Shown one piece after another: positions 57,302-63,221 of a stretch of 64,000 bases of DNA; the stretch's first letter is position 1; each line of letters starts with the position of its first letter. A model generated the notes under the pieces. It was not told the origin of the DNA. It made no database searches and worked only from the letters and a program-made list of their open reading frames with translations. The DNA is from a virus, in IMG/VR virus record IMGVR_UViG_3300047312_000028, positions 112,326 through 176,325 of that record; one strand, 5' to 3'. The position numbers and the translations under genes were made by a program.

Positions 57302-58027
57302 ATGTTTATGAAGTCATTGCGGCATTCGATGCTTGCAGTATCGATGCTGTTTGTGTTTGCACTCATGACGGCATGTAGTTCAGTGTCGTTCTTGCCTATC
57401 ACTGCCGTCGGTCCAGACAGGATGTTGGGGCAACGCACAGTCAACGAAATGAATGCGCTGGCGCCTTCAGTTCAGCGTTCATGGACAGAAGTTTGTAACG
57501 TTCTTATCGTGCAGCACACTGCTCCTTGGGACTGGTCAGAAACATTGTATGAGCCCCCATGTGATCCAGTCGTTATTCCTGGTGCAAACTATGCGAACTC
57601 TCCTGGATACATTGCAGGACTCGCTGCTCCTTTGATTCAAGCAGGAGCAATCGTTGGTGGCGCGTATTTGATTGGGGACGGAATCAAGCATTCTGGCTCT
57701 AAGACTACGAACAACAACGGCGCTTCATCTAATGTCAGCGGTAACACGAACGGCAACAGCAACAATGCTAATGCTCACGGTGGAAACGCGAATGCCCATG
57801 GCGGGAACGCTCAGGGTGGACAGGGTGGAGTTGGTAACGGTGGTCAAGGCGGCGTAGGTAACGGTGGTGAGGGTGGAGTTGGGCAAGGCGGTCAGGGTGG
57901 TGGCGGTGGAATAGGTAACGGCGGCGAGGGCGGCGTCGGAGGCCAGGGTGGCAACGGTGGTCAGGGTGGAGTTGGCGGACAGGGTGGAGCAGGTGGAAAA
58001 GCCTGTGGACAGAACCCAAACTGCTAA
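57302..58027 (+). CDS. lipoprotein with glycine-rich repeat tail
   Basis: 241 aa. Signal MFMKSLRHSMLAVSMLFVFALMTAC with lipobox MTAC (Cys25 lipidated). A 90-residue folded part with two more Cys and a hydrophobic GYIAGLAAPLIQAGAIVGGAYLIGDGI follows. From about 155 the chain is a run of HGGNA, then GGQGGVGNGG-type repeats, almost only Gly with Gln, Asn, Val, Glu, ending KACGQNPNC. Its own promoter and terminator make it an independent unit. A cell-surface lipoprotein made by a phage could alter host surface or block superinfection. Confidence 0.85.
   Translation: MFMKSLRHSMLAVSMLFVFALMTACSSVSFLPITAVGPDRMLGQRTVNEMNALAPSVQRSWTEVCNVLIVQHTAPWDWSETLYEPPCDPVVIPGANYANSPGYIAGLAAPLIQAGAIVGGAYLIGDGIKHSGSKTTNNNGASSNVSGNTNGNSNNANAHGGNANAHGGNAQGGQGGVGNGGQGGVGNGGEGGVGQGGQGGGGGIGNGGEGGVGGQGGNGGQGGVGGQGGAGGKACGQNPNC
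57772..58000 (+). repeat. degenerate glycine-codon tandem repeat
   Basis: Imperfect short repeats of the GGTGG(A/T)CAGGG and GGTAACGGTGG type encode the GGQGGVGNGG tail. Repeat units vary in the third codon position, so the repeat is kept at protein level. Confidence 0.75.
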
Positions 58028-58052
58028 TCTCTCTTAGTAGTCACTCAGAGAA

Positions 58053-58085
58053 GCTCCGGGGTGTAATGCCCCGGAGCATTTTGTT
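58053..58085 (+). terminator. rho-independent terminator
   Basis: GCTCCGGGG (58053-58061) pairs perfectly with CCCCGGAGC (58069-58077), followed by ATTTTGTT. Ends the glycine-rich lipoprotein unit. Confidence 0.88.
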
Positions 58086-58102
58086 GAAGACTGGAGCTAT
58101 CG

Positions 58103-58171
58103 ATGAATCGTTTAACTCTCTTATGTGCTGTGATTGTTGTTCTCGCGGCAGTCATTGTGTTCATGCAATGA
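58103..58171 (+). CDS. 22-residue membrane peptide
   Basis: MNRLTLLCAVIVVLAAVIVFMQ: a single transmembrane helix. GGAG lies just upstream and the stop overlaps the ATG of the next small gene. Translation coupling supports expression; function unknown. Confidence 0.5.
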   Translation: MNRLTLLCAVIVVLAAVIVFMQ

Positions 58172-58305
58172 TGCTCCTCGTGGCAATACAAGTTTTTTCT
58201 GTCTCAGTCACACTGATAATCATACTTGTCGGTCTCAGTGTCTTAGATAGATTCGGAATGTGGTGTCTTCGTCTTATTGATCGAATAGGGAGTACTTTGA
58301 AATGA
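58168..58305 (+). CDS. 45-residue membrane protein
   Basis: MMLLVAIQVFSVSVTLIIILVGLSVLDRF... has one long hydrophobic helix and a basic C-terminus (RLIDRIGSTLK). ATG 58168 overlaps the previous stop, and its own stop overlaps the next ATG. Part of a chain of three tiny genes. Confidence 0.55.
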   Translation: MMLLVAIQVFSVSVTLIIILVGLSVLDRFGMWCLRLIDRIGSTLK

Positions 58306-58481
58306 ACCCAGCGAACTTCCCAGACAACAAAAGACGCAAACAAAAAGAAGCATTGGATCGTAACAATGAATGGAAGCTCATGGCCCCAGGTGCCCAGTTG
58401 AAAGCTCTTGATCGTCGGCCTGGCGCCTGCAAGAAGCAACGAGAAAAGATTCTTGAGAGATTGAAACCAGCAGTGAAGTAG
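58302..58481 (+). CDS. small basic hypothetical protein
   Basis: 59 aa: MNPANFPDNKRRKQKEALDR..., rich in Lys, Arg and Leu, probably helical and nucleic-acid binding. ATGA overlap with the preceding gene. It ends 8 bases before the structured RNA candidate. Confidence 0.6.
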   Translation: MNPANFPDNKRRKQKEALDRNNEWKLMAPGAQLKALDRRPGACKKQREKILERLKPAVK

Positions 58482-58488
58482 AACATAA

Positions 58489-58773
58489 GGGAGAGGTGTG
58501 GCAGAAGTCTCCTTCTTGCGAGGAGAATGCTGAGTACGTTCACCTCGGAAAGAACAAGTAGTTGGCTATTGGGTAGTGCCAGTAGATATGAGGACTCTGG
58601 TGTGGGTCTCATGGTCGCTGAATCACATGTATACATAAAAACCAGCAAGCATGTGACGGAGGGTAAAATCCCCCTAGTTCGTAGAAGCGTTGTTGCAACA
58701 GCGTGGAGAACTATCGCATAGTAACCTGTAGTTGATGAACGTTGTAGGGGTTGGCATCCCTATCACCTCTCCC
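58489..58773 (+). ncRNA. structured RNA candidate closed by a 10-bp helix
   Basis: GGGAGAGGTG (58489-58498) pairs perfectly with CACCTCTCCC (58764-58773), enclosing 265 nt without a convincing gene. Inner hairpins: TCTCCT/AGGAGA (58508-58513, 58521-58526); ATGA-GAC/GTC-TCAT (58588-58595, 58606-58612); TCACATG/CATGTGA (58623-58629, 58650-58656); AGTTC/GAACT around 58676-58711; TAGGG/CCCTA (58745-58749, 58758-58762). The right arm is followed by ATTTTATTATT. The layout is a multibranched RNA. It is not a tRNA, tmRNA, RNase P or SRP RNA by motif. Class unknown. Confidence 0.6.
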
Positions 58774-58792
58774 ATTTTATTATTGAGGTATC

Positions 58793-59086
58793 ATGAATAA
58801 AACTTTAACCGACGATCAAAAGACAATTAAAGACCTCAGAAGGCAAATCTCTCAACTCAAAGAACAAGGCAACAGGTTCTTCGATCAAATCATATGCCGT
58901 GAGACTTACGGTATGTTCCTTTACCCAAAAGACAAACTCAACATATCGTGGACACTTTCTGATGTGTACGAGCGCGCCCATGCTGCACAGACGCTTGGGT
59001 ATAACGTACTGATTCGTGTGGATGATAAAGGGTTGCACGTCGATTACGCGAAGAAGCTCCCAAACTCACGACCATGGGCATTCTAA
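58793..59086 (+). CDS. small protein with N-terminal coiled coil
   Basis: 97 aa, GAGGT upstream. DDQKTIKDLRRQISQLKEQGNRFFDQI is a coiled coil; ISWTLSDVYERAHAAQTLGYNVLIRVDDKGLHVDYAKKLP forms a small alpha/beta unit. No family recognised. First protein gene after the RNA candidate. Confidence 0.65.
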   Translation: MNKTLTDDQKTIKDLRRQISQLKEQGNRFFDQIICRETYGMFLYPKDKLNISWTLSDVYERAHAAQTLGYNVLIRVDDKGLHVDYAKKLPNSRPWAF

Positions 59087-59105
59087 ATCTAAAAGGAGTG
59101 CAATC

Positions 59106-59537
59106 ATGAAACTGGCATTGAAATACTGGTTAGTCATGGCGGCAATTGTTGCTGCTATCGCATTGTTCGGTGCACTCGCCCAGGCATCTGATAAGATACA
59201 ATCATGTGTACAAGCAGATGGCACAATGATCTACACGAACAAAGATATCAAAGGGTGCACAACTCTAAAGGCACATGAACTTTCCGTGGTTCCCTCTTAC
59301 GATCAGATTAAGCACGAAGATATTGCTCAGTCATTGATCGTGCCAACCCCGCCAGTCGTTCTTACCCCCGAAATCTCAAGCGTCTTGAGCGATACCTGCC
59401 AACTCTATCATGAATGGGTCAAACTAAATTCAACAGACCAAGGTGGGCTGAGAAACAACACAATAGAACGTCAACAGCGACGTGTGGCACTCACGATGAT
59501 TTTCGGATCAGGCTTCTCACCTTCAAACTGCAAATAA
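59106..59537 (+). CDS. secreted DUF4124-like protein
   Basis: 143 aa from ATG 59106 (AAAAGGAG upstream). The signal peptide ends ALAQA/SDK. Then IQSCVQADGTMIYTNKDIKGC matches the DUF4124 pattern (Y.C.dadG...YT). Three to four Cys suggest disulfides in the periplasm. DUF4124 proteins are typical of proteobacteria, a hint to the host. Function unknown. Confidence 0.75.
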   Translation: MKLALKYWLVMAAIVAAIALFGALAQASDKIQSCVQADGTMIYTNKDIKGCTTLKAHELSVVPSYDQIKHEDIAQSLIVPTPPVVLTPEISSVLSDTCQLYHEWVKLNSTDQGGLRNNTIERQQRRVALTMIFGSGFSPSNCK

Positions 59538-60179: not shown

Positions 60180-60974
60180 ATGATTATCTCAAACATACCG
60201 CACAAGATGTTTAAGTTCCCTGTGGGCGAAATGCAGGTGAATGTAGAGTATGAACGCCCCTATGATAGTGCTGTTCATGCTGTCAATGTGACGTTTACAT
60301 TCACAAAGAACGAAGACATTATCGAACTCATGTTGTTTGTTGATGCGTGTAAGCGCCAGGGAATGGTCTTAGGTACGCTCACGATGCCGTATGTGCCGTT
60401 TAGTCGCCAGGATCGTAAGAATGCTATTGGAGAATCATTCAGTCTTGCTGTCTTCTGCAATCTCATTAACTCACTCAACTTCTTTCAAGTTGTTGTGCAT
60501 GATCCGCATTCTGATGTGACACCCGCCCTCTTGAATAACTGCTTCGTGCGCGAACAACATACGATGTTGAAGCCTATCCTTGATAAGAACTTAGGCGCTC
60601 AACCATTCTATCTTGTCAGCCCTGATGCTGGCGCACTCAAAAAGATATACAAACTGGCAAAGATGTTTGATAACAACAGGATGATTGGTGTGATTGAGTG
60701 CGGAAAGAAGCGCGATACATCGACGGGTGATATCACAGGCACAGTCATATACAGAACACAACCACTCGTGCCTCAAGTGCCATGTGTGATGATCGATGAT
60801 ATTTGTGATGGTGGGCGAACATTCGTTGAACTTGGTAAAGCACTCAAAGCAAAAGGCGCAGAGAGAGTCCACCTCTATGTGACACACGGATTCTTCACGA
60901 AGGGTCTTGATGTGTTCAATGGAATTGTTGATGTAGTCGATGCAGCACACTTTTATCCGAGCTTCAAATCATGA
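60180..60974 (+). CDS. ribose-phosphate pyrophosphokinase-like enzyme (PRPP synthetase or ADPR-PP synthetase)
   Basis: 264 aa, shorter than cellular enzymes (about 310). LTMPYVPFSRQDRK (69-80) is the ATP-loop signature; VVHDPHSDVTPALLNN, LVSPDAGALKK, and the PRPP loop VMIDDICDGGRT (203-214) are intact. It transfers pyrophosphate from ATP to ribose-5-phosphate or, in NARP1 phages, to ADP-ribose. A NAMPT-family gene follows three genes downstream, so the pair fits the NARP1 NAD+-rebuilding pathway. ADP-ribose specificity cannot be told from motifs alone. Confidence 0.88.
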   Translation: MIISNIPHKMFKFPVGEMQVNVEYERPYDSAVHAVNVTFTFTKNEDIIELMLFVDACKRQGMVLGTLTMPYVPFSRQDRKNAIGESFSLAVFCNLINSLNFFQVVVHDPHSDVTPALLNNCFVREQHTMLKPILDKNLGAQPFYLVSPDAGALKKIYKLAKMFDNNRMIGVIECGKKRDTSTGDITGTVIYRTQPLVPQVPCVMIDDICDGGRTFVELGKALKAKGAERVHLYVTHGFFTKGLDVFNGIVDVVDAAHFYPSFKS

Positions 60975-61763: not shown

Positions 61764-63221
61764 ATGAGCACATCCCCAATACATTTTTCAGATTTCTACA
61801 AAACAGATCACGCACGTCAAGCGCCTGATGGTACGACAGGTATTTATGCGAACATGACGCCGCGCGGATCACGTATTGAGGGGATTGATAAGGTGGTTGT
61901 GTTCGGCTTTCAATATTTCGTGCTTGAGTATCTAATCAAGCGATTCAATCGAGACTTTTTCGAGCAGCCTAAGGACCTTGCCGTTCGGAGATATAAGCGC
62001 AGACTTGACAATGCCCTAGGCAAAGATGCTGTAGAGGTCTCACGATGGGAGAAGCTGCATGATCTTGGCTATCTACCATTGCATATCAAGGCGCTGAACG
62101 AAGGATTGTTGTGTCCTATGCGTGTGCCTGCACTCACAATTCGTGAGACACATCCAGATTTCTATTGGCTACCTACATGGATGGAAACGCTGTTATCAAC
62201 AGTCACATGGCATCCGATGACTAGCGCGACGATTGCACACCAATATCGTGTACTGATTGATGCGTATGCTGTAGAGACTTCAGACATTCCAAACTTTGCA
62301 GATTGGCAGGGGCATGACTTCAGTATGCGTGGTCATACAAGTGTTGAATCATCCTGTGTGAGCGGCATGGCGCACTTGTTAAGCTTCACAGGTACAGATA
62401 CGATTCCAGCAATTGATTTCCTCGAGGAATACTATTTTGCCAACTCTGATGAAGAGTTAGTGGGTGGTAGTGTGCCTGCGACTGAACACTCGGTCATGTG
62501 TTTGGGTAGTAAAGAGACTGAATTTGAAACATATAAACGCCTTATCTCTAAAGTGTATCCAAAGGGATTCATTAGCATTGTGTCAGACACATGGGACTAC
62601 TGGAAGATTCTCACAGAGGTGCTCCCTGCCTTGAAAGCAGAGATCATGGCACGAGATGGTCGCGTGGTCATACGACCTGACTCAGGCGATCCTGTGAAAA
62701 TCATTTGTGGCGACCCTGATGCACCCAAAGGGAGCCCAGCACACAAAGGCACTATCGAATTGCTCTACGAAGCATTCGGTGGTGAGAAGAACTCGAAAGG
62801 GTACATACAGCTTGATACCCATATCGGTGCTATCTATGGTGATTCGATCACTCTGCAACGTGCCAAAGAGATACTTGAGGGATTGAAGAGTAAAGGATTT
62901 GCATCCACCAACATAGTATTCGGCATCGGTTCATTCACATATCAATATGTGACACGAGACACATTTGGATTCGCAGTGAAAGCAACCTCAGGTATTATCA
63001 ATGGGGAACGAGTAGCGATCTTCAAAGATCCAAAGACTGATTCAGGTCTTAAGCGATCTGCAAAGGGATTACTCAGAGTCAATGCAGACTTCAGCTTATC
63101 GGAAGATGTGACTGAAGATGAAGAGAAAGAGGGATTACTTGAAACCATATTCGACAATGGGGTAGCATACAACCTTCAAACACTTACGGAGATTCGTAAG
63201 AGATTGGCAGAGCAGCTATGA
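61764..63221 (+). CDS. nicotinamide phosphoribosyltransferase family enzyme (NAMPT/Namat)
   Basis: 485 aa, the length of NAMPT, with GGAG upstream. FSDFYKTDHARQAPDGTTGIYANMTPRGSR, DWQGHDFSMRGHTSVESS, IVSDTWDYWKILTEVLP, RDGRVVIRPDSGDP and FGIGSFTYQYVTRDTFGFAVKA are family landmarks, including Asp and Arg residues of the nicotinamide and PRPP sites. NAMPT makes NMN from nicotinamide and PRPP; the NARP1 version (Namat) makes NAD+ from nicotinamide and ADPR-PP. Phage NAD+ repair counters NAD+-depleting defences. Confidence 0.93.
   Translation: MSTSPIHFSDFYKTDHARQAPDGTTGIYANMTPRGSRIEGIDKVVVFGFQYFVLEYLIKRFNRDFFEQPKDLAVRRYKRRLDNALGKDAVEVSRWEKLHDLGYLPLHIKALNEGLLCPMRVPALTIRETHPDFYWLPTWMETLLSTVTWHPMTSATIAHQYRVLIDAYAVETSDIPNFADWQGHDFSMRGHTSVESSCVSGMAHLLSFTGTDTIPAIDFLEEYYFANSDEELVGGSVPATEHSVMCLGSKETEFETYKRLISKVYPKGFISIVSDTWDYWKILTEVLPALKAEIMARDGRVVIRPDSGDPVKIICGDPDAPKGSPAHKGTIELLYEAFGGEKNSKGYIQLDTHIGAIYGDSITLQRAKEILEGLKSKGFASTNIVFGIGSFTYQYVTRDTFGFAVKATSGIINGERVAIFKDPKTDSGLKRSAKGLLRVNADFSLSEDVTEDEEKEGLLETIFDNGVAYNLQTLTEIRKRLAEQL

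Follow-up and report, generated by a model that had tools for sequence, protein, structure and literature searches.

A structured non-coding RNA, probably trans-acting, in large tRNA-rich phages: an apparent new family

Phage RNA classes known to have an elaborate conserved structure are few, and the most familiar of them, GOLLD and ROOL, are still without an assigned function. Both are phage RNAs that often lie near tRNA islands, and both assemble RNA-only cages with kissing loops (PMC12286853). OLE, another orphan, is about 600 nucleotides (nt) long and occurs in Bacillota. Its kink-turn is reported to be needed for recognition by the protein OapC (PMC9723947). Among the RNAs whose function is known, class A RNase P RNA (RF00010) offers a multi-helix structure with a conserved single-stranded core. 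The lysine riboswitch (RF00168) offers a five-way junction, a turned stem and a loop-loop contact, and some riboswitches combine a kink-turn with such a contact.

The locus to be compared with these lies in a window (the whole stretch of DNA that was analysed) of 64 kb, bases 112326-176325 of a virus record of 176,325 bases (G000). Here, a preliminary description had suggested a possible new non-coding phage RNA, some 285 nt long, pointing to a 10-bp helix that joins its two ends, to five internal hairpins, to a T-rich stretch past the right arm, and to a position between two small protein genes. Most of this was borne out. The arm GGGAGAGGTG (58489-58498) is the perfect 10-bp complement of CACCTCTCCC (58764-58773), the right arm is followed by ATTTTATTATT, and the region is flanked by open reading frames (ORFs) of 59 (58302-58481) and 97 (58793-59086) amino acids. 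Hairpins do lie inside the end helix, but the final model counts seven of them. The suggestion that the RNA might be "large ornate" is only partly apt, its size being well below that of GOLLD, ROOL and OLE.

Alone, the end helix and the single-sequence fold are weak evidence. This is because 64 kb of sequence should by chance contain some 18 perfect inverted repeats of 10 bp whose arms are separated by less than 300 nt (our own arithmetic), and because the fold of the window RNA reaches only z = -2.99, with 2 of 200 shuffles as good. Among homologues, just the inner 8-9 bp of the end helix are conserved.

Homologues were sought by fetching viral contigs via the nicotinamide phosphoribosyltransferase (NAMPT) gene 3 kb downstream, and then searching these with the 285-nt sequence. 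This delivered homologues at L014:5926-6210 (77% identical to the window RNA; the L013 version is the same sequence), at L010:5347-5635 (63% identical) and, with a weak sequence match, at L012:5426-5711, the most distant member. A covariance model (R1) built from the window, L014, L010 and L012 retrieved L099:4326-4617, which was not used in building it, at 212.8 bits (E ~1e-74). The family thus has five members, with pairwise identities of 48-82%, split in two clades: window/L014/L099 and L010/L012.

Outside these carriers the RNA was not found. Searches with R1 and a further covariance model, R2, of 111 virus records, each searched whole, returned known carriers only; blastn gave no homologue in phage isolates or plasmids; 5,426 E. 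coli genomes held no match; and pattern matches in a collection of genomes from 84,980 species included no homologue. The pattern matches in bacterial genomes and in other viral contigs were rejected, having failed the profile or the covariance model. A 24-nt match in Synechococcus phage S-CBWM1 can be put down to chance, as the annotated genes that it abuts leave the RNA no space.

Folding the five-row sequence alignment with RNAalifold gives -69.8 kcal/mol, vs -23.0 ± 3.8 kcal/mol for column shuffles in which gaps and conservation class were preserved (z = -12.2). On the minus strand the fold is poorer (-57.7, vs -69.8 on the plus strand). In the least biased test, the minimum-energy structure of the window RNA alone was mapped on the MAFFT alignment. 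Here 81% of cells pair, vs 69% in shuffled alignments, and 37 pairs are changed on both sides, vs 20.1 ± 3.1; none of 500 shuffles reaches either value. When partners are slid by 1-3 columns, no more than 45% of cells are paired and no more than 14 double-change pairs appear. The structure predicted from L012, projected on the alignment, does equally well. The final consensus, pseudoknot included, has 91.5% of cells paired vs 75.6% shuffled and at most 46% slid. Covariation among homologues, which the preliminary description had proposed as a check, is thus strong with the window-only structure, the L012 structure and the consensus alike.

The double-change counts are, of course, counts of cells and not of events. 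The five members fall in two clades, no tree-based covariation test was made, and many double changes across the two clades may reflect few events. We left out of the model a 5' GTTC/GAAC hairpin that belongs to the window's minimum-energy fold but lacks conservation. None of the reading frames is conserved; stops occur in all frames of all five members on both strands, in agreement with the earlier view that the region has no convincing frame. That 58489-58773 is a real structured RNA seems to us close to certain, a judgement made because of the comparative evidence (the energy of the alignment fold and the covariation) and not because of the end helix. Its parts, by position in the window, are these:

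58489-58773, plus strand: whole structured RNA, putatively mature, from the 5' end to the 3' end of P1 (five-member alignment; R1/R2; alignment fold; plus strand better)
58489-58498, plus strand: P1 5' strand, pairing with 58764-58773 (8 conserved pairs formed in 5/5 members, 3 double-changed)
58500-58531, plus strand: P2/P2b hairpin, with P2 58500-58503/58528-58531 and P2b 58509-58514/58520-58525 (five-member alignment)
58515-58519, plus strand: P2b loop CTTGC, pseudoknot strand, pairing with GCAAG 58645-58649 (5 pairs formed in 5/5 members)
58548-58561, plus strand: near-invariant GAAAGaACAAGTAG, core strand lying between P3 and P4 and for the most part unpaired (invariant at 13 of 14 positions across the five members)
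58558-58740, plus strand: P4 stem (58558-58579 / 58716-58740), closing the five-way junction with P5, P6, P7 and P8 (8 double-change pairs)
58587-58613, plus strand: P5 hairpin (7 of 9 pairs double-changed)
58624-58655, plus strand: P6 hairpin, with the 3'-side conserved motif ACYAGYARRC bearing pseudoknot strand 58645-58649 (alignment)
58658-58674, plus strand: P7 hairpin (2 double-change pairs)
58675-58713, plus strand: P8 hairpin with kink-turn, apical loop TTGCAA (C-NNN-GA / GA-G in 5/5 members, stems covary)
58737-58744, plus strand: conserved strand GAACGTTG, between P4 and P9 (no differences among four members, a single change in L014)
58744-58763, plus strand: P9 hairpin, TGGC/TGGA loop, abutting the P1 3' strand without a spacer (alignment)
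58764-58773, plus strand: P1 3' strand (pairs with the P1 5' strand)
58774-58785, plus strand: AT-rich 3' flank, a possible processing or termination site (AT-rich past P1 in 5/5 members)

P1 closes the element; inside it follow P2/P2b, a small P3, GAAAGaACAAGTAG, P4 with the five-way junction, GAACGTTG and P9. Folded singly, the window RNA, L014, L099 and L012 all form the five-way junction, and the L010 optimum differs locally. In the sequence alignment, the two clades differ in the register of the P6 helix. Invariant columns make up 43 of the 112 unpaired and 59 of the 166 paired, so that the unpaired core is as conserved as the helices. Such strands fit, by inference, a binding or an active site.

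The kink-turn in P8 consists of a C-stem TAGTTC/GAACTA, a loop GTA (58681-58683) and then the NC-stem, with GA 58684-58685 opposite GA 58706-58707. The canonical form is present in all five members with both stems covarying, and the three free bases read GTA, ATT, GTT, GCA and GTT across them. A pattern search sees it in 4/5, missing L010, which has a bulged T in its C-stem. Between 5 and 26 of 300 shuffles of a single sequence hold such a pattern anywhere. The pseudoknot, between the P2b loop and the 3' side of P6, is CTTGC/GCAAG in three members and TCTAC/GTAGA in two; three of its five pairs show compensatory double changes, and among 1000 column-shuffled alignments a stack as good arises anywhere in only 3. 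No phage-encoded L7Ae-type protein, which would bind a kink-turn, was found in the carrier phages, so that a protein partner, if there is one, would come from the host or belong to another family.

Known RNA classes do not account for these features. With Rfam 15, neither the whole window at gathering scores nor 58000-59200 at E<=10 gave a match to the RNA, and the L010 and L012 versions gave sub-threshold chance matches only (E 1.7 and worse). The claim of a new non-coding RNA, for which an Rfam search had been a suggested check, is supported by this and by the covariation. The Rfam models of GOLLD, ROOL and OLE do not match. Like GOLLD and ROOL, the RNA is phage-encoded, has an elaborate covarying structure and no known function, and occurs in phages with tRNA arrays. 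Unlike them, it is much smaller, has no sequence or Rfam similarity to them, lies distant from the tRNA array, and has not been shown to multimerise. It resembles OLE as an orphan structured RNA with a kink-turn, but differs in size and host, in having no Rfam match, and in the lack of an L7Ae-family protein in the phages.

Class A RNase P RNA shares with it the many helices, the conserved single-stranded core and a short GGAAAG similarity. However, a P4-type long-range helix is missing here, and the RNA has no local similarity to the RNase P RNA of the phage itself, a true RF00010 copy of which is encoded elsewhere in the same phages. A relative of RNase P RNA was rejected, the GGAAAG similarity being the only one, with no shared core and no RF00010 match. 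The likeness to the lysine riboswitch is one of architecture only; there is no Rfam match, the junction here is internal (P4), the element is longer, and the downstream genes vary. A riboswitch would be recognised by a conserved function of the downstream gene, which the carriers do not show.

Other candidates were rejected as well. Retron RNA fails since the five carrier records have no RVT_1, for which control genomes do ring. A tmRNA or tRNA-like RNA has against it the absence of any ARAGORN or RF00023 match and of a CCA after P1 in any member. P9 abutting P1 resembles a T-arm on an acceptor stem; its loop lacks the T-loop pattern, and again there is no CCA. Mimicry of 16S rRNA or of the anti-SD rests on a CACCTC at the P1 3' strand that is not conserved, and there is no E. 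coli genome match. By the available tests the RNA is a member of none of these classes; it would be a new family within the orphan structured phage RNAs, and it works most like the orphan ornate RNAs.

The surroundings of the RNA bear on how it acts. In L101, L015 and L008, the gene that lies downstream of the RNA in L099 directly follows the upstream neighbour, with no RNA between. Where the RNA is present, the gene 3' of it differs: the 97-amino-acid ORF in the window, an 88-amino-acid homologue in L014, a 143-amino-acid p59106-type gene in L099, and unrelated small ORFs followed by a release-factor-like gene in L010 and L012. Gene order thus establishes the putative RNA gene as a discrete cassette, which as a whole is either there or missing between phage genes. 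Because the flanking genes change and relatives keep the neighbours without the RNA, it is probably trans-acting rather than a cis-regulatory leader.

In L012 a sigma-70-type promoter with an extended -10 (TTGACG, 17 nt, TAGTAT) ends 9 nt before the RNA. No such promoter was seen upstream of the RNA in the window by scan, or in L014, L010 and L099 by eye. In these four the RNA begins right after the upstream stop codon. For both reasons read-through and trimming is likely in the four, in the absence of expression data. No canonical terminator was found past the RNA where scanned.

Three of the carriers are long records: G000, G009 and G011. In G000, one region outside the window holds 28 tRNAs together with genes for tmRNA (83.6 bits) and class A RNase P RNA (176.6 bits). 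G011 has an RNase P RNA of 208.1 bits, a tmRNA of 100.8 bits and 28 tRNAs; G009 has an RNase P RNA of 191.1 bits, a tmRNA of 89.3 bits, with tag VESEFALAA (ARAGORN), and 25 tRNAs. All three encode a short release-factor-like GGQ protein, whose gene adjoins the RNA in G009 and G011. The positions are:

class A RNase P RNA (RF00010, 177-208 bits): G000:C1:31495-31797 (L255:11495-11797, plus strand); L265:13749-14062, minus strand; L271:18741-19070, minus strand
tmRNA: G000:C1:28445-28796 (L255:8445-8796, plus strand); L265:10237-10570, minus strand; L271:16197-16507, minus strand
tRNA arrays: L255:3744-14087; L265/L266; L271/L272; L279 (ARAGORN: 28 in G000, 28 in G011, 25 in G009, 16 in the G044 fragment)
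short release-factor-like GGQ proteins: L012:3860-6910 and L010:3352-6730; G000:C1:40601-40792

Of the related records that lack the RNA described here, 27 were searched for RNase P RNA, among them eleven of more than 140 kb, and none has it. RnpA protein was not found in the three phage records bearing RNase P RNA, and an SmpB gene was not found in the same records as the phage tmRNAs. A limited search of open-access papers turned up no report of a phage-encoded RNase P RNA. The gene of the RNA described here lies far from the tRNA array, and its link to translation is no more than co-occurrence, seen in one phage lineage.

The best explanation, which we hold with some confidence, is that 58489-58773 encodes a discrete structured non-coding RNA that acts in trans and represents a new family in a lineage of large tRNA-rich phages. 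Its role during infection would most likely be in tRNA or ribosome metabolism, because its carriers encode RNase P RNA, tmRNA, 25-28 tRNAs and the GGQ protein. Taken by itself, a role in the tRNA and translation kit can be put forward only tentatively. Rather doubtful is the further step to a new class of functional phage RNA, which may be catalytic or form the core of a new ribonucleoprotein (RNP), in a self-supplied RNA-processing and translation kit with RNase P RNA, tmRNA and tRNAs.

As to mechanism, the RNA would be transcribed from its own promoter in L012 and elsewhere probably arise by read-through and trimming. In the fold supported by comparison, P1 joins the ends, the central junction holds the near-invariant unpaired strands, P8 is bent by its kink-turn, and the P2b loop-P6 pairing docks the 5' domain on the junction domain. 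By inference, the kink-turn and the loop-loop contact may hold the core strands in place, and the core may bind a protein, another RNA or a substrate. Our best guess, with function again inferred, is a stable trans-acting RNA in the phage's RNA and translation kit, one that acts as a compact RNP or an active core.

Against this stand other readings. The structure might be due to chance, or the region might encode protein, with no functional RNA at all; the 10-bp helix and the single-sequence folds are, after all, not far beyond chance, and the fold of L012 alone is unremarkable (z = -1.73). As far as aligned sequences can decide, the comparative data already contradict this, since covariation, alignment energy, pseudoknot, a kink-turn in 5/5 members, the independent retrieval of L099 and stops in every frame all speak for an RNA, and we give it practically no credence. 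A cis-acting, riboswitch-like leader, in which ligand binding controls the downstream gene, would fit the position immediately upstream of a small gene, as well as the kink-turn and loop-loop contact. It is improbable given that this gene differs among carriers, that P1 closes the whole element, and that no expression platform is seen. Precise presence or absence between genes would also suit a ribozyme or an intron-like mobile element (self-cleaving, self-splicing or an inactive derivative), as would invariant unpaired core strands, which are typical of active sites. Rfam, however, gives no match to group I/II introns, RNase P or self-cleaving ribozymes, no carrier has a reverse transcriptase, and the element sits between genes and not inside one, in a neighbourhood kept across carriers, unlike that of a freely moving element. 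We regard this reading as very improbable.

Equally hard to favour is a role as decoy or in anti-defence, with the RNA titrating a defence nuclease or host protein during infection. It would explain the accessory pattern of presence and absence, and the RNA does lie near the genes for phosphoribosylpyrophosphate synthetase (PRS) and NAMPT, a pair linked to NAD+ salvage and counter-defence; yet no mimicry of a host RNA was found, in sequence or structure, either in Rfam or in the 5,426 E. coli genomes. Unlikely, but deserving of somewhat more attention, is an ornate homo-oligomer of the GOLLD/ROOL/OLE kind, in which palindromic loops of different copies pair to give a symmetric RNA complex. Four members have the palindrome TTGCAA as the apical loop of P8, and in the fifth this loop contains CCGG; the conserved GAACGTTG holds the palindrome AACGTT in four; and the kissing-loop cages of GOLLD and ROOL are also made by phage RNAs, often near tRNA islands (PMC12286853). 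Against this, 285 nt is far below the size of those RNAs, palindromic hexamers arise by chance, and five sequences are too few for intermolecular covariation.

At about 285 nt, the RNA is small enough for chemical probing, in vitro assays and structure determination. As its carriers have RNase P RNA, tmRNA and tRNAs, it can be used to test concretely whether phages of this kind bring other RNA machinery with them.

Several genes near the RNA may be recorded. In G011, the GGQ protein is accompanied by a Pth2-like peptidyl-tRNA hydrolase and an RNA ligase, no more than 3 kb from the RNA, and similar ORFs occur in G009; these genes may be a ribosome-rescue and RNA-repair set. In the window, genes for PRS and NAMPT lie at 60180-60974 and 61764-63221, an NAD+ salvage pair that is kept downstream of the RNA in all carriers. 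The window also encodes, at 57302-58027, a putative lipoprotein whose C-terminus carries a glycine-rich tail of GGxGGxGG repeats; its homologues occur in several relatives.
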